NCBI RefSeq assembly: GCF_026015965.1
Contig: NZ_CP110383.1
Span: 2,367,255 to 2,431,254 of the forward strand
Direction of reading: 5' to 3'
Source: Selenomonas sputigena
GTDB lineage: Bacteria > Bacillota > Negativicutes > Selenomonadales > Selenomonadaceae
DNA: 64,000 nt
Both the position numbers and the translations under genes were made by a program. The number at the start of each line of letters is the position of its first letter. Position 1 is the stretch's first letter. Below, piece by piece: positions 8,046-52,497 of the stretch. The notes below the pieces were generated by a model. It was not told where the DNA came from. It did no database searches and was given only the letters and a program-made list of their open reading frames with translations.

Positions 8046-8539
8046 GGACGCGGTATTTTTCCAAGGAGCGACTGACAAAGATTGTCGAGATCTTCCCCAA
8101 AGCGACGTTCGACGCGGAAGCGCAAGAGCCTGCGCTCATCGTCACGGCGGCGGACTTTCCCACCGTACTGCGCGCTCTCAAGGAGAGGGAGGGCTTCGAC
8201 CGCCTCGGCAATCTCACGGCGGTCGACTGGAAAGATCATATCGAGATGGTCTATCATCTCTACAATATGGAAGAGAATGTAAAACTCGAGATGAAAGTCG
8301 CGCTCGACAGCGCCGCGCCCGTCATCGAGTCGGCGACATTGCTGTATCCGGGGGCAGAGTTCGAGGAGCGCGAGGTCTACGACCTCATGGGCGTGGAGTT
8401 CTTGGGTCATCCCGATCTTCGAAGAATTCTCATGCCCGACAACTATCCCGCGCATCCTCTGCGCAAGGATTTCGTCGCGCCTGTGCCGAAATTGGAGGGA
8501 GGAAAGCTCGTATGGCTGGAAAAAGCACCTACATCCTGA
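8042..8539 (+). CDS. nuoC: Complex I subunit C (30-kDa type)
   Basis: 165-residue peripheral-arm subunit. The family core is visible as [14 protein letters not shown] (about residues 60-73) and the later [20 protein letters not shown] (about residues 109-128) with PLRKDF. It is a separate protein, not a NuoCD fusion. Its 3' end overlaps nuoD by 28 nt. Confidence 0.93.
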
Positions 8540-9609
8540 ACATGGGGCCGCAGCACCCGAGCACGCATGGCGTGCTGCAGGTCGAACTCGAGCTTTCAGG
8601 CGAGCGCATCGAGCGCGCGAAGCCGATTGTCGGCTACATCCATCGCGGCATTGAAAAGCTCATGGAGTCACGCACATATGCGCAGAGCCTGCCCTATACG
8701 GACAAGCTCGACTACGTTTCGGCGATGAACAACAACCTCGCATGGTGTACGGCGGTGGAGAAGCTCGCGGGCATCCGCGTGCCGCTTCGCGCCGAGTATC
8801 TGCGCGTCATCGCGGCGGAATTGAACCGCATCGCGAGTCATCTCGTCTTCATCGGCACGCTTCTCAATGATCTCGGCGCGGCGACGGCCTTCATCTATGC
8901 GTTCCGTGACCGCGAGAAGGTGCTCGACCTCTTCGATCTCCTCTGCGGTGCACGCATGTCGACGAGCTACATCCGCTTGGGCGGCGTCTCCTATGATGCG
9001 ACGGACGAATTCATCGAGAAGGCGCAGGCTTTCCTCGACTATGTGCCCGAAATGCTCGAAGAATACGACAATCTCATCACGGGCAACGAAATCTTCTATG
9101 CGCGCATGAAGGGCGTCTCGCCCATGACGGCGGAGGAGGCGAAGTCCTTGTCGCTGTCGGGTGCGAACCTGCGTGCGACGGGCGTCGCCTACGACATCCG
9201 CCGCGTCGAACCGTACTGTGTCTATGACCATCTCGACTTCGAGGTGCCCGTCGGCACGATCGGCGACGATTGGGATCGCTATGAGGTGCGTCTCAAGGAG
9301 ATGGGCGAGAGCGCGAAGATCATCCGCCAAGCGCTGAAGGATATGCCTGCAGGGGAGTTCAAGAAGAAAGTATCGCCGAATCTTCGCCCGCCGAAAGGAT
9401 CGGTCTACCACCGCGTCGAGAACACGCGCGGCGAGCTGGGCTTCTACATCGTGAGCGACGGCACGGCGAAGCCTTACCGCGTACATATCCGCCGGCCGTC
9501 CTTCGTGAACTTGCAGGCGCTCGATTCCCTGTGCCGCGGCACGCTGATCGCCGACTCCGTTGTCGTCTATTCGACGCTCGACCCGCTGATGGGCGAGGTC
9601 GACTGCTAG
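8512..9609 (+). CDS. nuoD: Complex I subunit D (49-kDa type)
   Basis: 365-residue subunit that forms the quinone-binding cavity with NuoB. It opens with the family signature MGPQHPSTHGVLQ (about residues 11-23), followed by VGYIHRGIEKL (about residues 42-52) and GARMSTSYIRLGGVSYD. The C-terminus ends STLDPLMGEVDC, close to the usual D-P-x-x-G-E-x-D-R ending but with Cys in place of Arg. The start ATG follows a GGAGGGAGGAAAG ribosome site inside nuoC. Confidence 0.93.
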   Translation: MAGKSTYILNMGPQHPSTHGVLQVELELSGERIERAKPIVGYIHRGIEKLMESRTYAQSLPYTDKLDYVSAMNNNLAWCTAVEKLAGIRVPLRAEYLRVIAAELNRIASHLVFIGTLLNDLGAATAFIYAFRDREKVLDLFDLLCGARMSTSYIRLGGVSYDATDEFIEKAQAFLDYVPEMLEEYDNLITGNEIFYARMKGVSPMTAEEAKSLSLSGANLRATGVAYDIRRVEPYCVYDHLDFEVPVGTIGDDWDRYEVRLKEMGESAKIIRQALKDMPAGEFKKKVSPNLRPPKGSVYHRVENTRGELGFYIVSDGTAKPYRVHIRRPSFVNLQALDSLCRGTLIADSVVVYSTLDPLMGEVDC

Positions 9610-13825: not shown

Positions 13826-15351
13826 TGGACTTTCCCGTTTTGTCGGTCATCCTGCTCACGCCGTTGGCGGCGGCGCTTCTCCTTTGCTTCTTGAACCGCG
13901 AGTCGCGCTCCGCCATCCGCATCGTGGCGGCTGCCGCCATGGCGTTCTCGTTCGCTCTTTCCGTTTGGGCGTACTTCGGCTATGACCTCGCGGCGGGCGG
14001 CATGCAGTATACGGAGCGCGTGCCGTGGATCACCGATCTCGGCGTTTCCTACGCGCTCGGCGTCGACGGCATCTCCTTGCCGCTGCTCCTCTTGACGGAG
14101 CTGATCGGCGTGTCGGCGGTCTTTTCCTCGTGGCATGTCGAGGAGCGCTCGAAGGAGTTCTTCATCCTGCTGCTCATCTTGATCGCAGGCGTCACGGGCA
14201 CCTTCGTCGCCAACGATCTCTTCATCTTCCTCTTGTGCTACGAGGTCGTCGTCATCCCGATCTACATTCTCGTCATTCTCTTCGGCTCGACGAAGCGCGT
14301 GACGAAGGAATACGCGGGCATGAAGCTCACGATCTACCTGCTGCTCGGCTCGGCATTCCTGCTCGTCGGCGTCGTCTGGCTCTACCTCACGGCGTTCCCC
14401 GCAGGAAGCCGCACGTTCGACATGCAGATGCTCGCGCTCGCGGCGCAAGGAGGACACTTCAGCCCGGGCTTCCAGATCGGCGCATTCTTACTGCTCCTCA
14501 TCGGCTTCGGCTCGCTGCTTTCCATGTTCCCGTTCCACAGCTGGTCGCCCGACGGCTACGCGGGCGCACCGACGGCGGTGTCGATGATTCATGCGGGCGT
14601 TCTGAAGAAGATCGGCGGCTACGGCCTCATCCGCATCGGGCTTCTCGTGCTGCCTTTGGGTGCGAAGTTCTGGGCGCCCTTGATTGCGTTCCTCGCGATG
14701 TGCAACGTGCTCTACGCCGCTTACATCGCGCTCGTGCAGAAGGACTTGAAATACGTCGTCGGCTACTCGTCGGTGTCGCACATGGGCTATGTGCTCTTGG
14801 GCTTCGCGGCATTGAATGTCGTCAGCGTTTCGGGCGCGGTTGCCAACATGGTGGCGCACGGCGTGATGAGCGCACTCTTCTTTGCGATGATCGGCTTTAT
14901 CTACGAAAAGACGCATCTTCGCACGGTTGACGATCTCAAGGGGCTTGCCTACCAGATGCCGCGCCTCGCGACGGGCTTCATGCTCGCGGGCATGGCGTCC
15001 TTGGGACTGCCGGGACTCATCGGCTTCGTGCCGGAGTTCACAATCTTCGTCGGCGTATTCGCCGAGTTCCCGATTCTCGCGGTGCTCGCTATCGCCGGCA
15101 TCATCTTCACGGCGCTCTATGTGCTGCGGCTTCTCGCCAAGGTGCTCTTCGGTCCGGCGGACAAGAAGTTCGACGCGTACCGCGACATGCGCGGCGCGGA
15201 GCTTGTGCCGCTCGTGCTCTTGGGCGTCGCTCTCGTGGGCTTCGGCGTGTTCCCGCATCTCCTCATGGGGCTGATTTCGACGGGGACGGAGCCTTTGCAG
15301 CCAATGCTTGACCAGTTGAGCCGGATCGGCTTCTTTTTAGGGGGGGACTGA
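13825..15351 (+). CDS. nuoM: Complex I subunit M (antiporter-like)
   Basis: 508-residue proton-pumping subunit with about 14 helices. Family segments include ALGVDGISLPLLLLTELIG, the membrane glutamate in FLLCYEVVVIPIYILV (about residues 135-150), and FPFHSWSPDGYAGAPTAVSM (about residues 232-251). It begins in the nuoL stop codon (TGATG) and is two nt from nuoN. Confidence 0.95.
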   Translation: MDFPVLSVILLTPLAAALLLCFLNRESRSAIRIVAAAAMAFSFALSVWAYFGYDLAAGGMQYTERVPWITDLGVSYALGVDGISLPLLLLTELIGVSAVFSSWHVEERSKEFFILLLILIAGVTGTFVANDLFIFLLCYEVVVIPIYILVILFGSTKRVTKEYAGMKLTIYLLLGSAFLLVGVVWLYLTAFPAGSRTFDMQMLALAAQGGHFSPGFQIGAFLLLLIGFGSLLSMFPFHSWSPDGYAGAPTAVSMIHAGVLKKIGGYGLIRIGLLVLPLGAKFWAPLIAFLAMCNVLYAAYIALVQKDLKYVVGYSSVSHMGYVLLGFAALNVVSVSGAVANMVAHGVMSALFFAMIGFIYEKTHLRTVDDLKGLAYQMPRLATGFMLAGMASLGLPGLIGFVPEFTIFVGVFAEFPILAVLAIAGIIFTALYVLRLLAKVLFGPADKKFDAYRDMRGAELVPLVLLGVALVGFGVFPHLLMGLISTGTEPLQPMLDQLSRIGFFLGGD

Positions 15352-15353
15352 GC

Positions 15354-16775
15354 ATGGATTTTTCAGCAATCGGCATGGAGCTTGGTCTTCTTGCGCTCGC
15401 CCTGCTCTTTTTGGCGATGGGCGTGCTGCTGCCGAAGAAGGAATCGCGCACGAGTCTCGCGGCGATCTCGGTCGTCGCGCTTCTCGCGCTCTTCGCCTAC
15501 GGCTTTTCCTTCTATCGGGGCGGCGAGGCGGCGTCCTTCTACGCGGGGCTTTACGTCGTGGACAATTACGCCGTCTTCTTCAAGCAGCTCTTCATTTTGA
15601 GCGCGGCGCTTGTCGTGCTCTTTTCGAGCGACTATGTCGAAAGGCTTCTGCGCTCTCGTGCGGAGTTCTATGCGATCCTCGTCTTCGCCGTGCTTGGCAT
15701 GTGCGTCATGGCTTCGGCGAACGACTTCCTCACGCTTTACATCGGGCTGGAGCTTATGACGATCTCCTTCTATGTGTTCGTCGGACTCCGCCAGCGCGAT
15801 GCGCTTTCGAGCGAGGCGGCGATCAAGTACCTCGTCTTGGGCGCGGCGGCGTCCGCGATCCTCTTCTTCGGCGTCAGCCTCATCTACGGCGCTGCGGGCA
15901 GCCTGCGCTTTGCGGCGGTCGTGAGCAGCCCGCAGCTCTTCACGCCGCTCGGCATCGTCGGAATGGCGCTCGTCTTTGCCGGCATCTTCTTCAAGCTGTC
16001 GATGATACCGTTCCACATGTGGGCGCCCGACGTCTACGAGGGCGCGCCCGCGCCTGTCGCCGCGCTCCTCGCCATGGGGTCGAAGGCGGCGGCTTTCGCC
16101 GTGCTCCTGCGCCTTGTCTTGGCGGTATTCCCGCCGTTGGGTGGCATGTGGCTCTCGCTTTTGGCCATTCTCGCTGCCGTCTCGATGGTCGGCGGCAATG
16201 TCATGGCGATCGTGCAGGACGATGTGAAGCGCATGCTCGCATATTCTTCCATCGCGCAGGTCGGCTACATGCTCGTCGGCGTCGTCGCGGCGGATGCGGC
16301 GGGCATGAAGGCGCTGCTCTTCTACCTCGCGCTCTACGCCTTTGCGAACATCGGCGCTTTCGCCGTGCTGACCGCCGTCGAGGCGCAGCGCGGCAAGCCC
16401 GACATGGCGAACGTCGCGGGACTCGCGAGAACTGCGCCCGTCCTCGCCGCCGTCATGACGATCTCGCTGCTCTCGATGGCGGGCATCCCGCCGACGGCGG
16501 GCTTCGCCGGGAAGCTCTACCTCTTCACGGCGGTCGTCGATCAGGGCGGCCTGTGGCTCGCCTTCGTCGGCTTCATCATGTCGATGATCTCCGTCTACTA
16601 CTACCTGCTCGTCGTCAAGGCGATGTACCTCGGCGAAGGCCCGAAAGAACCCGTAAAGATCTCGGGCGCACTTCGTGCCTGCGTCCTCGTGAGCGTCGCT
16701 CTGACGCTCGCCCTCGGCGTCTATCCCGAGCCTTTGGCGAACCTCACGAACTTTGTGGCGGCGACGTTCTTTTGA
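15354..16775 (+). CDS. nuoN: Complex I subunit N (antiporter-like)
   Basis: 473-residue membrane subunit, last gene of the operon. Conserved segments are FLTLYIGLELMTISFYVFVG (about residues 124-143), the lysine-containing FKLSMIPFHMWAPDVYEGAP (about residues 213-232) and the helix MLAYSSIAQVGYMLVG. With NuoL and NuoM it makes up the three antiporter-like pumps. A strong terminator follows 13 nt after the stop. Confidence 0.95.
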   Translation: MDFSAIGMELGLLALALLFLAMGVLLPKKESRTSLAAISVVALLALFAYGFSFYRGGEAASFYAGLYVVDNYAVFFKQLFILSAALVVLFSSDYVERLLRSRAEFYAILVFAVLGMCVMASANDFLTLYIGLELMTISFYVFVGLRQRDALSSEAAIKYLVLGAAASAILFFGVSLIYGAAGSLRFAAVVSSPQLFTPLGIVGMALVFAGIFFKLSMIPFHMWAPDVYEGAPAPVAALLAMGSKAAAFAVLLRLVLAVFPPLGGMWLSLLAILAAVSMVGGNVMAIVQDDVKRMLAYSSIAQVGYMLVGVVAADAAGMKALLFYLALYAFANIGAFAVLTAVEAQRGKPDMANVAGLARTAPVLAAVMTISLLSMAGIPPTAGFAGKLYLFTAVVDQGGLWLAFVGFIMSMISVYYYLLVVKAMYLGEGPKEPVKISGALRACVLVSVALTLALGVYPEPLANLTNFVAATFF

Positions 16776-16788
16776 CGGATGGGAGAAA

Positions 16789-16860: not shown

Positions 16861-17108
16861 GGTTGACAGCAATGCGTTTCCATGCTATACTTTGTTACAG
16901 TGAAGGAAGAGATTTTGGGGAAAATGCCATGAGTTTTAGATTTTTCCCGTGGACAAAAGTTTCCTTGATATTACAGGGGTTGCGGACGTTTTCAGCCGAT
17001 TTTGGCGACAAAAAAATCCCGCGGGGTTGCGGCGATTTGCCAAAAAGAGCGATCCGTTTAGAAAACCCGCTTCTGGGTTCAGCTGTCCCAAGGGCTGTGA
17101 GGGACGGT
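16861..17108 (+). promoter_or_regulatory. CRISPR leader 1 with promoter
   Basis: TTGACA (16863-16868), 17 nt, TATACT (16886-16891): a near-consensus promoter about 220 nt before the first repeat. The leader is almost identical to those at 18706-18954 and 21966-22214, from the promoter through to the first repeat. It contains an AACCCGCTTCTGGGTT hairpin near 17067. Unlike leaders 2 and 3, the sequence just upstream of the promoter is not shared. Confidence 0.85.
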
Positions 17109-17508
17109 ATTGCATGCAATCCATACCGCTTGCGGTATTGAAACTCCATTTTCCGTCCTTATCAACCACAATCTGCCAAATTGCATGCAATCCATACCGC
17201 TTGCGGTATTGAAACTCATCGATGTCCTCTCTAACATCAACGAGATCATCCATTGCATGCAATCCATACCGCTTGCGGTATTGAAACACGAATTCTGTTT
17301 GGGAGAGCGTATAATGTCCTGATTGCATGCAATCCATACCGCTTGCGGTATTGAAACACCGTCACGGGATGGCCTTCGAAGCCTTCAAACTCAATCGTAT
17401 TGCATGCAATCCATACCGCTTGCGGTATTGAAACCGAAGGGAATAGTTCCCCTCCATTTCCAGATAGCCATTATTGCATGCAATCCATACCGCTTGCGGT
17501 ATTGAAAA
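17109..17508 (+). CRISPR. CRISPR array 1: six repeats, five spacers
   Basis: 36-nt repeats start at 17109, 17180, 17252, 17322, 17399 and 17473. Spacers are 35, 36, 34, 41 and 38 nt. Each repeat is the 12-nt palindrome ATTGCATGCAAT, then CC, then ATACCGCTTGCGGTAT (a 7-bp inverted repeat around TT), then TGAAAC. The first five repeats look identical; the last ends AAAA in place of AAAC, marking the leader-distal end. The ATTGAAAC tail is common in type I-B and III repeats. Transcription is to the right from the leader promoter. No cas gene for adaptation or interference is adjacent. Confidence 0.97.
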
Positions 17509-17545
17509 AGGACAGATTCGTGCAGAATCCCTAAGAGGATGAAAA

Positions 17546-17578
17546 GAAGCCCTGCGGCAGAGCCGCAGGGCTTCTTTT
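17546..17578 (+). terminator. Terminator after array 1
   Basis: GAAGCCCTGCGG, loop, CCGCAGGGCTTC then TTTT, 37 nt after the last repeat. The intervening 37 nt (AGGACAGATTCGTGCAG onward) is repeated after array 2. Confidence 0.8.
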
Positions 17579-17697
17579 GTTATGGGTCACTGTCCGTATT
17601 TTGGGGTGCAGCCCACTTCAGCCAGTCGGGGTCTTCGTGGTCGAGATACTTGTCTGAAAGCGTGAGTATCTGGTAGATCAGCTTGAAGTTTGCTTTG

Positions 17698-18588
17698 TCA
17701 AACACGTTGGCTAACCAGAGCCGCATACTTCGCACGCTCGTCAGCCGGAATTTGCAGCACATCCATCGCCTTTTCTACGGAAAAATTCATGCTGTGCATC
17801 ACGTTGCGGATGGAGGTGGTCAAGCCTTCCTGTCGTCCTTCCTGCCGTCCTTCCTGTCGTCCTTCCTGCCTTCCATCCGCTCTCGCCTCTTCAGCGCGAA
17901 TCTCTAAGGCGCGTTCCTGATTCCAAGCAAAATTCAACATATCGAAGACCTCCTCCTGCTTCTGACGAAAATAATCCTCCAGATAATTATGTGCGATACA
18001 GTATCGCACAGACTCGCTTATAGCAGTTTCAAGCGCACTTCCGCTCTTGAGCCTTTCTCTCACCTTGGCGACGAAAACGCTGTAGCTTTTGAGCGCATGG
18101 CTTTTTTCCAGGATCGGACGATTCGGCTTGTCATTGATATTGAGGACTTTGACTGCAAGATCTATGTCTCCCCTGTAGTCATCAAAAGCATCTGACAGGT
18201 GCAGCGTCCATAGATCTGGCATTTCCACCTCACCGTTGTAGAATACATAAAACTTCGGTGCAGGCAAGGGGATCAATCTTTTCCGATAGACCGCATCGGC
18301 ATCCACATAGCGACGATAGATTTCTGCCAGATACATGAGCATTCTCAATGGCATGTTCGCATTGATCGTGCTTTGATGCTCGGTCAGGAGAACATGCTGA
18401 TTGCCGACGATAAAACCTACGTCATTCTTGATGCCTGAGAAAAGCGTTTCATTGATCGTGGCGAGCGTTATATCGCTGGCTGTCGTTTTAATGCCAAGAA
18501 GCGCCTCATAGATTTCTGGCAGTCTGTCTGCGTTGTTGAAGATGTCGCGAAAAAGAGAATCCCGGTATGCACGCTGCGGTTTCCTCAT
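17698..18588 (-). CDS. Rpn family / PD-(D/E)XK nuclease transposase-like protein
   Basis: 296-residue protein of the recombination-promoting nuclease (Rpn, transposase-like PD-(D/E)XK) family. It opens with SLFRDIFNNADRLPEIYEAL. The nuclease core segment VLLTEHQSTINANMPLRMLM (about residues 86-105) is typical of the family. The C-terminus has a tandem GRQE repeat (about residues 240-257) encoded by 12-bp DNA repeats, then a conserved tail AMDVLQIPADERAKYAALV. The ATG at 18588 follows AAAGGGGG. It lies between arrays 1 and 2, opposite to their direction. Its first 26 codons are duplicated upstream of the CARF gene, and a truncated relative lies at 51907. Confidence 0.8.
   Translation of the reverse strand: MRKPQRAYRDSLFRDIFNNADRLPEIYEALLGIKTTASDITLATINETLFSGIKNDVGFIVGNQHVLLTEHQSTINANMPLRMLMYLAEIYRRYVDADAVYRKRLIPLPAPKFYVFYNGEVEMPDLWTLHLSDAFDDYRGDIDLAVKVLNINDKPNRPILEKSHALKSYSVFVAKVRERLKSGSALETAISESVRYCIAHNYLEDYFRQKQEEVFDMLNFAWNQERALEIRAEEARADGRQEGRQEGRQEGRQEGLTTSIRNVMHSMNFSVEKAMDVLQIPADERAKYAALVSQRV
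17822..17870. repeat. 12-bp tandem repeats inside the Rpn gene
   Basis: About four 12-bp units (CCTTCCTGTCGT with C/T changes) encode the GRQE repeats. Multiples of 12 keep the frame, so copy-number change would lengthen or shorten the linker without a frameshift. Confidence 0.8.
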
Positions 18589-18609
18589 CGAACTGCCCCC
18601 CTTTATCAT

Positions 18610-18639
18610 ATTATACTATAAGCCGCGCCATCCGGACAA
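18610..18639 (-). promoter_or_regulatory. Rpn gene promoter
   Basis: On the minus strand TTGTCC (18634-18639), an 18-nt spacer and TATAAT (18610-18615), about 22 nt from the ATG. Confidence 0.6.
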
Positions 18640-18705
18640 GGAGTGTTGGTGGTTTCGGCTGTATCATCCTGCGCATCGAAGCGCTCTCGACGCCCTCATG
18701 TACAC

Positions 18706-18954
18706 GGTTGACAGCGGACATATTTCCATGCTATACTTTGTTACAGTGAAGGAACGAATTTCGGGGAAAGTGCCATGAGTTTTAGATTTTCCCCGTGGAC
18801 AAAAGTTTCCTTGATATTACAGGGGTTGCGGACGTTTTCAGCCGATTTTGGCGACAAAAAAATCCCGCGAGGTTGCGGCGATTTGCCAAAAAGAGCGATC
18901 CGTTTAGAAAACCCGCTTCTGGGTTTAGCTGTCCCAAGGGCTGTGAGGGACGGT
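18706..18954 (+). promoter_or_regulatory. CRISPR leader 2 with promoter
   Basis: TTGACA (18708-18713), an 18-nt spacer and TATACT (18732-18737). The rest of the leader follows leader 1 with few base changes. Confidence 0.85.
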
Positions 18955-19277
18955 ATTGCATGCAATCCATACCGCTTGCGGTATTGAAACGCTTATAATC
19001 CCGCTTTTGCAACAATGGAAGCATCAGATTGCATGCAATCCATACCGCTTGCGGTATTGAAACAAAATCTGTTATGATTGACCATGGAGATGGTATTCAA
19101 TTGCATGCAATCCATACCGCTTGCGGTATTGAAACACATCATCGCGTTTGCACGCCTCTTTAACGATGGTTATTGCATGCAATCCATACCGCTTGCGGTA
19201 TTGAAACTTGACAAAGCCGCCCTGCCGACTAAAGCGCGGCCATTGCATGCAATCCATACCGCTTGCGGTATTGAAAA
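18955..19277 (+). CRISPR. CRISPR array 2: five repeats, four spacers
   Basis: Repeats start at 18955, 19028, 19100, 19172 and 19242, with the same 36-nt sequence as array 1; the last again ends AAAA. Spacers are 37, 36, 36 and 34 nt. The third spacer (19136-19171) shares about 23 nt, with one mismatch, with the last spacer of array 3. The second spacer (19064-19099) can be read as SVMIDHGDGIQ, close to the M23 metallopeptidase motif, so it may target a phage lysin or tail gene. The 3' flank matches that of array 1. Confidence 0.97.
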
Positions 19278-19317
19278 AGGACAGATTCGTGCAGAATCCC
19301 TAAGAGGATGAAAATAA

Positions 19318-19340
19318 GCCCTGCGGCAGAGCCGCAGGGC
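19318..19340 (+). terminator. Decayed terminator after array 2
   Basis: The stem GCCCTGCGGC/GCCGCAGGGC is kept, but the T-run seen after array 1 is replaced by CGGTATATG, so termination may be weak. Convergent transcription of the csx20-like gene ends nearby. Confidence 0.5.
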
Positions 19341-19504
19341 CGGTATATGTATGCAGTTTTCCTAGCAGTGTATGTGTCTTTCGAGCAGCGGCAGCGCTTC
19401 CTCGAAAGGCGTCCTTAGATCCTGTGCCCGCCGGGCTTGCTGTATCCTTCTTCCTCCATGACGTTCCTCATGGCCGGCCTCGCGGCAAAGACTCGTCCGG
19501 ACGC

Positions 19505-19867
19505 TCACCGATACTCGCGAAACCGCGTGAAGACGAAGCGGCTGATCTTGCGTGCCGAACCGTCTTCCGCCTGCTCCTCGATCGCCTCCCTGCGGCTCGT
19601 TGCCGCAAGGACAGTTACGCCCGCCGCACGCAGGAGGTTCACGAGATGGTAGACGTAGGTGAACTCGCCCTGACACAATACGGCGCAAGGCTTCTCCGCC
19701 AAGATCTTCGCGGCATTCTCCGCAGCGACTTTCGCGACGCGCTCCTCGTCCCAATCCGCCCCGATGTCGGGAAACGGCAGATCCTCGATCTCGCCCCAAG
19801 TGCGCGCCGCCTCTTTCTGCGCCGTCGGCCACTTCGCCGAGGCATGGTTCGTATGGTTGATGAACAT
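19505..19867 (-). CDS. Csx20-like small CRISPR-associated protein
   Basis: 120 residues. An N-terminal beta strand ends in an NH motif (MFINHTNHASAKW), and the C-terminal half has a nucleotide-binding-like pattern: CQGEFTYVYHLVNLLRAAGV (about residues 64-83), ATSRREAIEE, and a final RFVFTRFREYR. The G-E/D-F, A-T-x-R-R and F-x-x-F-R-x-Y pattern is what I recall for Csx20-type proteins, small Rossmann-like CRISPR accessories proposed as ring nucleases that degrade cyclic oligoadenylate. The ATG follows AGGAGGAA, 11 nt after the CARF gene stop, so the two form an operon. The function is inferred. Confidence 0.6.
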   Translation of the reverse strand: MFINHTNHASAKWPTAQKEAARTWGEIEDLPFPDIGADWDEERVAKVAAENAAKILAEKPCAVLCQGEFTYVYHLVNLLRAAGVTVLAATSRREAIEEQAEDGSARKISRFVFTRFREYR

Positions 19868-19878
19868 GCAGCTTCCTC

Positions 19879-21738
19879 CTATGCGTTTCTAAGCCTTTCG
19901 ATGTAGGCGGCGATCTCTTCTTCCAGCCGGTCGTTTTCCGACGCACCTTGATTTCTGCGAGCCGTAGGCGCATTTTCGGCAGCGTGGTTCGTATCGTTGC
20001 GACCTTGGCGGATGAAATAGAAACCGCGCAAAAAATCGACGGCTTCCTCCGTCGCCTTCTGCGTATACATCAAAAGTTTCCCGTGGCCCGATAGCATCCT
20101 GCGGTAGCAAGCTTCCCGGCGCAGCCATTTCTCTTCGGGAGATTGTTGCTTCTTCGCGGTGCGTCTCTTTCTGGAGGTTGGATTTTTTCTGGCGCACGCC
20201 TCTCCACATTTCTTGCCGTCTATGCCCAGCGCGGTGAAAATATCCTCATTCGAGCTGCCTGCCAAGCGCCGCAAAATCTCTTCATGAAAAAACTTCTTCT
20301 TCGGCGATGGATGCAAAATGGCGATGGTACGGTCGATGATGGCATTGCGCGTGCGGAAATCTATCTGTCGCAAATCATAGTTCCGCCATTTGGAGGCGAT
20401 TTCATCGTAAGCGGCAAAAAAACTTTGCACGCCTCGTTTCATTTCCGGCGGCAAGTCCTCGACTCTTGTGCGAACTCCGCTGCTCAGTATCGTGCGAAGG
20501 AGGTTCGTCATTTCCTTGAAGGAAGCGTTATGGAAATCTCCTTCTGGAACAGACGTCGTCGGCGATTTCACTTCTTTGCTTTCCGTCACCTGGCCATACG
20601 AATTGATGAACTCCTGCTGCCAGCTCCGCATTCCCGCGCCGGAATCGCCGCGCTCTTGGCATTGCTCGATGACCTCTTCATCCTCCGTATAGCAGATTTT
20701 CTTCTCCACCAAGATCGCCGGAATCCACTCCGTGCAAAGTGTCATTGCTTGCTGCAGGAATTTCTTCTGCACGCACCACGCGATGATGTCGAGGCGACGA
20801 TCCGATTTCTCGCCCGACGCATTCTTGATGACAGAGCCGTATTCTCCCTCGATGACGCCGAGGATGTGCGAGAACATCTCCTCTTCGATGGAAGCGGGCT
20901 TCGACTGGCGAAAGGCGCGAATCTTCTCGGCGAGATCGGTCATCTCGTCTTCGATGACGCTCGTGCGGCAGATGCGTATGGCGTCGGAAAAGCGCCGCAT
21001 GGCGGCAAAGAGCGTGGAAAAATCCTCGCTGTGACGCGGACTGCGGCTGAAATACTCCTCCAGAGCCTGTACACTGCCGTACTTCTGGAACTCGTCCGCA
21101 CCCGCGACGAGGTCGAACATGCGGCGAATATCATCCGTCAGATGAACGCGGCTCTCCCCGCCCCGAACAAGATCCGAATATACGACATGCCCCATGCGGA
21201 TGCCCATGTACTTCGACAACTGCATGACGACGAGCAGCATCATCGCCGCATAGCGAAAGCCGCCCGTCATATCGGCATGAAGGACGAGCTCTGCCTCAGG
21301 CTCTTTTTCGTGCACGCGTTCGGCAAAGGCGCGAACACGCTCCGCGATGCCCGCAATGCTGCGCATCGAATCCTCGATGCCCATTTTCGAATATTCGCTG
21401 TCCTCGAACACCTGCGCGAGCTCCGGGTACTTCCTCGCGCTCTGCGCCTTCAAAAGCTCGACGGCGGACATCGACTCAGAACCGTATTTCTCCATCAGTG
21501 CCAGCCAATCTGCCGAATTCCGCGTCACCTTCTCGCGCGCTTGATCTGTCTCGATCAGAATGATTTTCGCCAAGCCGCCTTCCGCCCGCAGCAGAGACTG
21601 CAGCTGACAAACGGCGGCTTCGTTCGTCTGCATGCACGAAAATATCTCCTTCCCATCGACGCTCCGATATTCGACGTTCGTCGGATTATTCGCCAACTGA
21701 CTCACGAAAGCCACCATCACATGAACATTTTTCGTCAT
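19879..21738 (-). CDS. CARF-HEPN ribonuclease (TM1812/Csx1-Csm6-like)
   Basis: 619 residues. The N-terminal Rossmann-type CARF domain has a D-x-T-G-G-F-R motif (HADMTGGFRYAAMMLLVVMQ, about residues 154-173), which binds cyclic oligoadenylate in TM1812/Csx1 families. The C-terminus has a HEPN RNase motif, R580-N-D-T-N-H585. Together these indicate a cOA-activated RNase. ATG at 21738 follows GGGGGAAGG. The reading frame stays open for 41 more codons, through a remnant of the Rpn gene start to a GTG, so an N-terminally extended form is possible. The promoter is the duplicated Rpn promoter. No cas10 is nearby, so the signal must come from elsewhere. Confidence 0.85.
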   Translation of the reverse strand: MTKNVHVMVAFVSQLANNPTNVEYRSVDGKEIFSCMQTNEAAVCQLQSLLRAEGGLAKIILIETDQAREKVTRNSADWLALMEKYGSESMSAVELLKAQSARKYPELAQVFEDSEYSKMGIEDSMRSIAGIAERVRAFAERVHEKEPEAELVLHADMTGGFRYAAMMLLVVMQLSKYMGIRMGHVVYSDLVRGGESRVHLTDDIRRMFDLVAGADEFQKYGSVQALEEYFSRSPRHSEDFSTLFAAMRRFSDAIRICRTSVIEDEMTDLAEKIRAFRQSKPASIEEEMFSHILGVIEGEYGSVIKNASGEKSDRRLDIIAWCVQKKFLQQAMTLCTEWIPAILVEKKICYTEDEEVIEQCQERGDSGAGMRSWQQEFINSYGQVTESKEVKSPTTSVPEGDFHNASFKEMTNLLRTILSSGVRTRVEDLPPEMKRGVQSFFAAYDEIASKWRNYDLRQIDFRTRNAIIDRTIAILHPSPKKKFFHEEILRRLAGSSNEDIFTALGIDGKKCGEACARKNPTSRKRRTAKKQQSPEEKWLRREACYRRMLSGHGKLLMYTQKATEEAVDFLRGFYFIRQGRNDTNHAAENAPTARRNQGASENDRLEEEIAAYIERLRNA

Positions 21739-21771
21739 AGAATCCTTCCCCCAAAAAGCCACTCGCAAATG

Positions 21772-21849
21772 TATTTCCAGCAGTCTGTCTGCGTTGTTGA
21801 AGATGTCGCGAAAAAGAGAGTCCCCGTATGCATGCTGCGCTTTCCTCAT
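21772..21849 (-). pseudogene. 5' remnant of a second Rpn gene
   Basis: 26 codons (SLFRDIFNNADRLLEI at the end) match the start of the Rpn protein at 18588, then similarity stops and the CARF gene leader begins. It is in frame with the CARF gene. Confidence 0.8.
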
Positions 21850-21869
21850 AGAACGGCTCACTTTTTCAT

Positions 21870-21899
21870 ATTATACTATAAGCCGTGCCATCCGGACAA
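21870..21899 (-). promoter_or_regulatory. Promoter captured by the CARF operon
   Basis: TTGTCC (21894-21899), 18 nt, TATAAT (21870-21875) on the minus strand: the same promoter as at 18610-18639, now upstream of the CARF and Csx20-like genes. Confidence 0.55.
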
Positions 21900-21965
21900 G
21901 GAGTGCTGGTGGCTTCGGCTGCATCATCCTGCGCATCGAAGCACTCTCACCGCCCTCATGTACAC

Positions 21966-22214
21966 GGTTGACAGCGGACATATTTCTATGCTATACTTTG
22001 TTACAGTGAAGGAAGAGATTTTGGGGAAAATGCCATGAGTTTTAGATTTTTCCCGTGGACAAAAGTTTCCTTGGTATCACAGGGTTTGCGGACGTTTTCA
22101 GCCGATTTTGGCGACAAAAAAATCCCGCGAGGTTGCGGCGATTTGTCCAAAAGAGCGATCCGTTTAGAAAACCCGCTTCTGGGTTCAGCTGTCCCAAGGG
22201 CTGTGAGGGACGGT
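21966..22214 (+). promoter_or_regulatory. CRISPR leader 3 with promoter
   Basis: TTGACA (21968-21973), an 18-nt spacer and TATACT (21992-21997), then a leader very similar to leaders 1 and 2. Confidence 0.85.
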
Positions 22215-22536
22215 ATTGCATGCAATCCATACCGCTTGCGGTATTGAAACATAAAAGATGTTTTTTATAATGAAAGGAGTGGTTTATTGCATGCAATCCA
22301 TACCGCTTGCGGTATTGAAACATGATCACTTCTCCTTTTCAAAATAAGAATAAACAAATTGCATGCAATCCATACCGCTTGCGGTATTGAAACGCCGCCG
22401 TATCGGCGTGGCCGATATACGACTCAAATTGCATGCAATCCATACCGCTTGCGGTATTGAAACCTTGCACGCCTCTTTAACGAGGGTGGAGGTCAAGTAA
22501 ATTGCATGCAATCCATACCGCTTGCGGTGTTAACAC
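22215..22536 (+). CRISPR. CRISPR array 3: five repeats, four spacers
   Basis: Repeats start at 22215, 22286, 22358, 22428 and 22501. Spacers are 35, 36, 34 and 37 nt. The last repeat is degenerate after GCGGT (GTTAACAC in place of ATTGAAAC) and marks the distal end. The final spacer (22464-22500) overlaps in content with the third spacer of array 2. The 3' flank differs from arrays 1 and 2. Confidence 0.97.
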
Positions 22537-22542
22537 AAAGGG

Positions 22543-22577
22543 GCTGTCGCACATAAATCATGTGCGGCAGCTTTTTT
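22543..22577 (+). terminator. Terminator after array 3
   Basis: GCTGTCGCACAT, a 5-nt loop, ATGTGCGGCAGC, then six T. A second G/C-rich hairpin (CCTCC...GGAGG, about 22592-22619) follows. Confidence 0.8.
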
Positions 22578-22633
22578 CATGCATAAAAAAGCCTCCGCCC
22601 TAGCAAAAGGGAGGAGGCGGGTGTAAAAAAAGA

Positions 22634-22673
22634 GGGCTGTTGCATGAGTCGAATTCGACTCATGCAACAGCCC
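22634..22673 (-). terminator. Perfect 40-bp palindrome, hsp20 terminator
   Basis: GGGCTGTTGCATGAGTCGAA followed exactly by its reverse complement, with no loop. On the minus strand a T-run follows, so it can terminate hsp20. Confidence 0.75.
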
Positions 22674-22686
22674 CTTACGCTAAACC

Positions 22687-23188: not shown

Positions 23189-23269
23189 AACAATCAACTC
23201 CTTGAAATTCATGCGGCGGCACGGCTCTCTATGCCGTCGTTCATTGTTTGCATTACCGAAGGTGTTCTT

Positions 23270-23331
23270 TACCATGAAGCCCCGAGAGGTCAAGCCGAAG
23301 GCGCAGACCGATCGGCTAGGCTTCTGTAAGG
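23270..23331 (-). repeat. Promoter-like interspersed repeat, copy D
   Basis: On the minus strand it contains GCCTTCGGC then TTGACC, 16 nt, TAAAGA, preceded by TG. It faces hsp20, 80 nt upstream of its start. Confidence 0.7.
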
Positions 23332-23416
23332 CGTGAGGACATATGTACAGCGTGCCTCCTTGATGACACCGTTGTCAGAAGCGGCGGTGGAAGCAAGTCC
23401 TGCCGCTCTGCTTCAC

Positions 23417-23436
23417 GGCTGAACATATGTCCTGAA
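23417..23436 (-). repeat. Right inverted repeat flanking hsp20
   Basis: Reverse complement TTCAGGACATATGTTCAGCC, 19 of 20 identical to 22687-22706. The 750 bp between them hold hsp20 and its upstream region but not its terminator. Confidence 0.6.
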
Positions 23437-23459
23437 AGTTTGCTCACCTTCTGATTCTT

Positions 23460-51906: not shown

Positions 51907-52497
51907 ATGCGAGTCTCATGGTATAATATAAAAAGGCGCACGCGCTACTACCAGTCGATGATCGATGCCGACCTTCTGGAGACAGGTGCTGATTATGACG
52001 ACCTGAACAAGACCATCATCATTTTCATCTGCCCGTTCGATCCTTTCGGCAAAGGGCGGCATATCTACACTTTCCGCAACTTCTGTGCAGAGGACAAGAC
52101 ACTTGAGTTATCCGACGACGCAGCGAAGATATTCCTGAACGCCAAGGGCACGCTGAACGATGTGGATGAAAGCATCAAGGCATTTCTCGACTATGTGAAC
52201 GGTATCGTATGCAATGATCCCCTCGTGCGGGCAATCGACGAGGAGATTCGGAGGATCAAGGAAGAGAACGAAGAGAGGGTGAGCTACATGACTTTCGCGA
52301 TGAAGATGATGGAGGAGCGAAAAGAAGGCTTTAAGGAAGGAAAAGCTGAAGGAAAAGCTGAAGGATTGGCTGAAGGATTGGCTTCTTCTATTCGCAATAT
52401 GATGAAAAATATGGGCATTTCACTGGAAAAGGCGATGGACGTACTGCAGATTCCTGTGGACGAACGTGCGAAGTATGCCGCACTCGTCAAGGATTGA
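51907..52497 (+). pseudogene. 5'-truncated Rpn/PDDEXK-transposase gene
   Basis: Homology begins at RRTRYYQSMIDADLL (about 51931), which is internal to full-length members, so the N-terminal part is missing. It keeps the conserved central segment (ICPFDPFGKGRHIYTF), a GKAEGKAEGLAEG repeat (about 52330-52385) and the C-terminal tail KAMDVLQIPVDERAKYAALV, which nearly matches the Rpn protein at 17698. The ATG at 51907 lies in the porin terminator region, so translation is doubtful. Confidence 0.7.

Follow-up and report, generated by a model that had tools for sequence, protein, structure and literature searches.

Organisation of the CRISPR array locus

The window analysed here is a 64,000-nucleotide stretch of the Selenomonas sputigena genome (G000:C1:2367255-2431254; this source genome, G000, is a single contig of 2,613,980 bases). 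It contains three short arrays of clustered regularly interspaced short palindromic repeats (CRISPR), each behind a similar leader, together with an Rpn-family gene and the genes for a Csx20 ring nuclease and a Csx1-like CARF-HEPN protein. The order is array 1, Rpn, array 2, Csx20 and CARF-HEPN, array 3. This locus, referred to as locus C (arrays C1–C3), is considered together with two loci elsewhere in the same genome (A and B) and with the genome of a sister species (G001).

The leaders occupy positions 16861-17108, 18706-18954 and 21966-22214 on the plus strand. Each begins with a TTGACA-17/18-TATACT promoter (16863-16891, with 17-nt spacing; 18708-18737; 21968-21997) that matches 11 of the 12 consensus positions and lies 246-247 nt ahead of the first repeat. 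Over ~275 nt, leader identity is 90.9% (1-2), 91.2% (1-3) and 94.2% (2-3), in agreement with a preliminary description of this DNA, which had reported the same leader and near-consensus promoter three times. The arrays, also on the plus strand, comprise six repeats and five spacers (array 1, 17109-17508), five repeats and four spacers (array 2, 18955-19277), and five repeats, the last degenerate, with four spacers (array 3, 22215-22536). All share the 36-nt repeat ATTGCATGCAATCCATACCGCTTGCGGTATTGAAAC, present in 16 copies, and hold 13 spacers of 34-41 nt. The interior repeats are identical, and all three arrays show the evenly placed, almost invariant repeats and the unique, similarly sized spacers that are typical of CRISPR.

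Downstream of the last repeat, arrays 1 and 2 are alike over 99 nt with one mismatch. The flank of array 1 ends in a 17-bp stem and a T-run resembling an intrinsic terminator (17542-17578). The corresponding flank of array 2 (19278-19340, plus strand) loses its likeness at 19340, at the end of a shortened stem, and lacks the T-run, so that the common 3' flank described earlier holds but the common terminator stem is cut short in array 2. Array 3 is followed by hairpin and palindrome elements (22538-22674), which resemble DNA adjoining an IS1182-like transposase in G001 and DNA upstream of array B1 at locus B.

Between arrays 1 and 2, on the minus strand, lies the Rpn gene (17698-18609; 303 residues; PD-(D/E)XK nuclease/anti-phage family). 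Its protein scores 25.5 bits against Pfam PF04754 (cut-off 21), gives a TIGR01784 match of 2.1e-10 that is under that model's cut-off, and carries GRQE repeated four times near the C-terminus. A promoter-like site, TTGTCC-18-TATAAT, precedes the gene at 18639-18610 (minus strand), divergent from leader 2. Leaders 2 and 3 share sequence from 18512 and 21773 onward. This common upstream DNA includes the Rpn start, as the preliminary description stated, although at leader 3 only the first ~90 bp of the gene is present. That remnant (21773-21861, minus strand) encodes the first ~30 Rpn residues and stands upstream of the CARF-HEPN gene with a second copy of the promoter-like site (21899-21870, minus strand), divergent from leader 3. 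The CARF-HEPN/Csx20 operon therefore appears to occupy the place of a former Rpn gene, behind the Rpn promoter. Elsewhere in the window, a further Rpn-like open reading frame (ORF; 51907-52497, plus strand) matches the Rpn protein in its C-terminal part (60% over 65 residues), while its N-terminal part looks different or cut; more C-terminal-only Rpn matches lie at 2058034 and 828441 in G000.

The CARF-HEPN and Csx20 genes

Contrary to the preliminary description, in which no cas genes were placed between the arrays, the Csx20 gene (19505-19867, minus strand, 120 residues) and the CARF-HEPN gene (19879-21738, minus strand, 619 residues) separate arrays 2 and 3. The CARF-HEPN protein gives a PADLOC match of 4e-241 and has the CARF domain and HEPN RxxxxH motif of Csx1-like effectors. 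Both the CARF ADMTGG motif and the HEPN R-N-x-x-N-H motif (RNDTNH in the window protein) are invariant in all 13 aligned rows, which comprise the window protein and 12 rows picked for full-length matches out of 30 loci. The predicted model (mean predicted local distance difference test score 78.9, predicted template modelling score 0.52) is closest to the cyclic tetra-adenylate (cA4)-binding Csx1-Crn2 of Marinitoga, with a Z score of 15.3, 374 residues aligned, a root-mean-square deviation of 4.6 and a Foldseek E value of 1.3e-10. This fold search replaced a profile search of PDB sequences, whose sole match (IFT81, E 0.00045) was judged unrelated. Relatives of the protein occur in 54 of the 189 genomes of the family. 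Csx20 was assigned from a PADLOC profile match (6.9e-37), and a Csx20 of another organism degrades cA4 (PMC12409355, in excerpt).

A second CARF-HEPN protein, 31% identical to that of the window, is encoded near locus B (G000:C1 2104688-2106580). It is adjoined by a 740-residue ORF (L031:8506-10728) that has no PADLOC match.

Seven leader-array units and their spacers

With leader 1 as the query, seven leader-array units were found in the genome, at three loci and with 52 repeats and 45 spacers in total. The three cassettes first described are thus real but belong to a larger set. The E values of the seven leader matches (3e-53 to 3e-158) rule out chance similarity, and an intact promoter lies upstream in all seven. 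A search with the 3' half of the repeat returned 48 matches in G000, every one inside these arrays. An assembly artefact, the other doubt raised at the outset, is unlikely, as the region lies on one contig and the six copies of loci B and C, which are 4-14% divergent, have no spacers in common.

The 45 spacers represent 40 distinct sequences, none of which is common to any two arrays. Repeated spacers occur only within array B1 (G000:C1 2125668-2124838), where two spacers are present three times each and a third twice, which points to recombination between repeats. On the same strand, spacer 3 of array 2 and spacer 4 of array 3 agree over 19 nucleotides (E 1.2e-7) and then diverge, which suggests that related targets supplied both spacers as overlapping segments. 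Two shorter spacer-spacer matches (11 nt, E 0.007; 10 nt, E 0.03) were put down to chance. The independent spacer gain proposed in the preliminary description is borne out by this pair and by the lack of common spacers.

These data also bear on whether arrays 1-3 are decaying leftovers of homologous recombination that no longer adapt or serve. The arrays are short (four or five spacers), array 2 has lost its terminator T-run, and the end of array 3 is a degenerate repeat followed by a repeat element; in addition, G001 contains three arrays with one spacer each, as well as an empty leader ahead of a lone repeat, of a related family. Decay would be expected, however, to leave old spacers in common and mutations in the repeats, whereas the interior repeats are identical, the promoters are intact in all seven leaders, every array has its own spacers and one 19-nt stretch was sampled by both array 2 and array 3. 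We therefore regard decay as quite unlikely.

Remote loci encoding a type III-D system

No effector-complex genes were found among the profile-scanned ORFs of the array region, the remaining ORFs of the window having been read by eye only. Genome-wide, the III-D gene set is present at the two remote loci. Locus A (438-451 kb) encodes Cas10d, Csx10/Cas5-IIId, Cas7 proteins, Csx19 and Cas6 (447369-448169), together with an array, Cas1 and an ORF recognised by eye as Cas2-like. Locus B (2113-2126 kb, minus strand) has the order array, Rpn, array, III-D operon, array, and its operon includes Cas10d, Csx10 and Cas7. The GGDD motif in the Cas10 palm is the motif for cyclic oligoadenylate synthesis, and both Cas10d proteins retain it as LGGDDMTF.

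A Cas6 profile detected one full gene in the genome, that of locus A, and one fragment. Cas1 matches were found at three places: beside array A1, at 2586279, in a cas4-cas1-cas2 group assigned by eye to a different, I-C-like system, and, in part, at 1840796. Since locus A holds the single full Cas6 together with Cas1-Cas2, the simplest reading is that the arrays at loci B and C use these proteins in trans. Arrays with identical repeats are reported to have similar spacer gain rates regardless of their distance from cas genes (PMC12814883, in excerpt).

Cas6 and Cas1 fragments lie close together at G000:C1 1839518-1841122, possibly as the relic of a further III-D locus.

Mosaic structure and probable origin of the array units

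The preliminary description had explained the copies by segmental duplication of a leader-array-Rpn unit. Duplication as such is supported, but a simple segment of this kind does not account for the data. Leader C1 is closer to leader B1, 258 kb away (96.0% identity), than to leaders 2 or 3 (91%). Leaders C3 and B3 share four private sites, a grouping by position within the locus, while the remaining sites follow the locus or fit neither pattern. In a FastTree leader tree, the unit-1 and outgroup leaders split from the rest with a support of 0.97, and B3 pairs with C3 with a support of 0.90. The 3' flanks of the first two arrays are alike within each locus (one mismatch in 99; 0 in 118) and different between loci.

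Comparison of loci B and C along the Rpn gene gave a similarly mixed picture. Per 80-column block, identity is 91-100% over 18279-18954 (Rpn 5' end, intergenic DNA and leader 2) and 57-82% over 17959-18278 (Rpn body), a stretch in which the locus B gene is 91-100% alike to G001. The synonymous divergence (dS; Nei-Gojobori method, experimental Biopython module) of Rpn is 0.44 between B and C, 0.32 between B and the sister species and 0.66 between C and the sister species; between species it is 0.28 for CARF-HEPN and 0.06 for the neighbouring nuoN. The diverged Rpn bodies, flanked by similar leaders and Rpn 5' ends, suggest that the array unit and the Rpn 5' end were copied or converted between loci later, unless the leaders are constrained. 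The slot between arrays 2 and 3 also differs in cargo, holding the III-D operon at locus B and CARF-HEPN/Csx20 at locus C.

The copies are mosaic, and from these alignments the shared unit appears to coincide approximately with the transcription unit of the array, extended at two junctions by the Rpn promoter and 5' end. Mosaic leaders, diverged Rpn bodies and differing slot cargo together point to repeated copying or gene conversion of this unit, accompanied by cargo exchange. Plain tandem duplication of one leader-array-Rpn unit within the window locus, with later insertion of the CARF-HEPN operon, would explain the nearly identical 3' flanks of arrays 1 and 2 and the upstream DNA common to leaders 2 and 3. 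We consider it unlikely, given that leader 1 is nearer to B1, that the Rpn bodies are far more diverged than the adjoining leaders and that the junction between CARF-HEPN and the Rpn remnant is already present in G001.

Conservation of the joints in the sister species

In G001, the window's left flank (14500-16779) corresponds to 166770-169049 at 98% identity. Beyond it, G001 has different genes, one of which encodes a Schlafen-type helicase domain, and a truncated Rpn. Next come an IS1182-like transposase, a second CARF protein, Csx20 and CARF-HEPN, and then an Rpn stump, an array, Rpn, a further array and a III-D operon with 95.5% identity to the one at locus B. The right flanks of the window and of locus B lie at 2501 kb and 2397 kb, respectively, in G001. 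From these flank positions, one locus in the sister species corresponds to two in G000. The Rpn stump/CARF-HEPN junction is also common to both (window 19486-21923 against 183291-185729, 90.7%), so that it is either older than the species split or was moved together with the module. The promoter-like site at 21899-21870 falls within this common stretch. Genes for regulator-like proteins with WCX/HTH domains (L096:9079-10365, 8163-9224) are present between the transposase and CARF genes of G001; none was seen at locus C.

At these joints, the G001 arrays have a single spacer apiece and are of a different leader/repeat family, oriented in the opposite direction relative to Rpn. Their repeat starts with TCRCATGTGACCT or a variant and has the same 3' half as the window repeat. 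Three of the four leaders of this family in G001 are 89-91% alike over ~250 nt, and the fourth matches only over the last 39-48 nt. The window's own repeat family is represented in G001 by an empty leader with a single repeat (2323983). Conversely, locus B retains ~100 bp of a G001-type leader just past the Rpn 3' end, at 81-90% identity. This relic, together with arrays of another family at the same joints, suggests that the joints are older than the present arrays.

The possibility that leader-array units spread as mobile elements in their own right, mobilised by Rpn or by the IS1182-like element close by, was also weighed. The units have common ends near the promoter and terminator, IS1182-like DNA is present at the locus borders, and the Rpn family consists of DNA endonucleases with links to both recombination and horizontal transfer (PMC10327210, in excerpt). 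Against this, neither target-site duplications nor terminal repeats were apparent by eye in the unit borders, only the Rpn genes at loci B and C adjoin a leader among the 15 Rpn matches in G000, and homologous recombination is enough to explain the pattern. Such mobility seems very improbable.

Beyond the two species, the exact 36-nt repeat had no matches in named genomes. Its 3' half was found in the Selenomonas ruminantium metagenome-assembled genome (MAG) RUG12626 and one uncultured Selenomonadales MAG, and in 10 of the 189 genomes of the family, G000 and G001 among them. Leaders were compared in three of eight other genomes, each with two array regions, and were 97% identical over 259 nt, 78% identical over 310 nt and without likeness, respectively. 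In the S. ruminantium MAG, cas1 (named by eye) lies between two arrays whose leaders are 97% identical, and leader duplication is thus not unique to G000.

Proposed function of the dispersed system

Taken together, the window very probably represents a well-preserved satellite array cluster of a dispersed type III-D system, working with loci A and B in trans, whose copies arose by repeated copying or gene conversion. Each array would form a small transcription unit consisting of a promoter, a leader of ~245 nt, the array and usually a terminator. The three intact promoters make separately expressed guide sets, as suggested in the preliminary description, plausible. The transcripts would be cut by the single Cas6 of locus A into CRISPR RNAs beginning with the ATTGAAAC handle, which the III-D complexes encoded at loci A and B would take up. 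On meeting target RNA, Cas10 would make cyclic oligoadenylate, which is predicted to activate the CARF-HEPN RNase whose gene lies in the slot between arrays 2 and 3; Csx20 would break this signal down. New spacers would come from the locus A Cas1-Cas2, acting on all seven leaders in trans. In the order of events that we infer, the array unit passed between loci by repeated copying and gene conversion, at two junctions along with the Rpn 5' end beside it, and an Rpn gene gave way to the CARF-HEPN/Csx20 operon.

Several results weigh against this interpretation. No convincing protospacer emerged: in viral contigs, no matches were found for any of three exact 19-26-nt cores, which cover 4 of the 13 window spacers, and among phages arrays 1-3 gave only matches with E values of at least 0.2; both searches covered window spacers only, the other 32 being those of loci A and B. 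The link between the locus A Cas1 and the arrays is one of position only, and the Cas1 at 2586279 could also act on them. Csx20 reaches 48 bits (1.5e-12) with the NCBIfam model CAS_Csx20, below its cut-off of 70. In the leader tree C2 and B2 are unpaired, so that the equivalence of the second units of loci B and C rests on their flanks, and the divergence comparison is confounded by possible leader constraint and fast Rpn evolution.

Comparison with known systems

Individually, the ingredients of this arrangement and multi-array type III systems are already known; the replacement of array units at conserved joints is the unusual part. The operons at loci A and B match III-D models (Cas10d, Csx10, Cas7 fusions, Csx19), and loosely placed arrays have been described for types III-B and III-D (PMC12814883, in excerpt). 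In contrast, the window locus contains only signalling cargo and Rpn, without an effector operon, and depends on two remote loci. The CARF-HEPN and Csx20 proteins resemble Csx1/Csm6-type modules in domain order, motifs, fold and gene pairing, and PADLOC includes a model for a CARF-HEPN-Csx20 fusion; here, however, the genes are separate and lie behind an Rpn promoter and 5' stump, between two arrays.

Repeats and promoters common to several arrays are also found in the multi-array genomes of Sulfolobus and Pyrobaculum. Recombination between arrays of one cell is described for the former (PMC4390879, in excerpt), and a promoter-like element kept in 37 arrays for the latter (PMC3396285, in excerpt). 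The present units differ in sitting at the joints of defence modules, with another leader/repeat family there in the sister species. Likewise, the window Rpn gene agrees with the Rpn toxin-antitoxin anti-phage family, which has four-residue repeats near the C-terminus (PMC10327210, in excerpt), in its family match and its GRQE repeats, but it is linked to CRISPR arrays and mosaic between loci, and its anti-phage role is putative. A literature search found no description of this arrangement, which does not prove that none exists.

Three traits would make this a variant worth following: a putative reliance of scattered arrays on a single locus for processing and adaptation, a cargo slot downstream of an Rpn promoter, and array units that have been replaced at conserved joints. 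It offers a compact natural case of how many distant arrays could be supplied by a single locus for adaptation and processing, of how array units multiply and stay alike, and of a signalling module (CARF-HEPN and ring nuclease) separated from the complex producing its signal. With two sister species available, the order of events can be tested through strain comparison. More tentatively, leader-array units and Rpn pieces might be the exchangeable joints of a modular immune locus, recurring between the III-D operon, the CARF-HEPN/Csx20 module and Rpn, recombined and homogenised between loci and swapped for another family at the same joints in G001, letting modules reshuffle while each keeps its own small, independently updated spacer set.

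Other features of the window

In the 16-24 kb part of the window, seven Rfam matches to structured RNAs were obtained, none reaching the gathering score. An intergenic repeat of ~175 bp was observed at 23265-23441, with more than 25 full or partial copies in G001.

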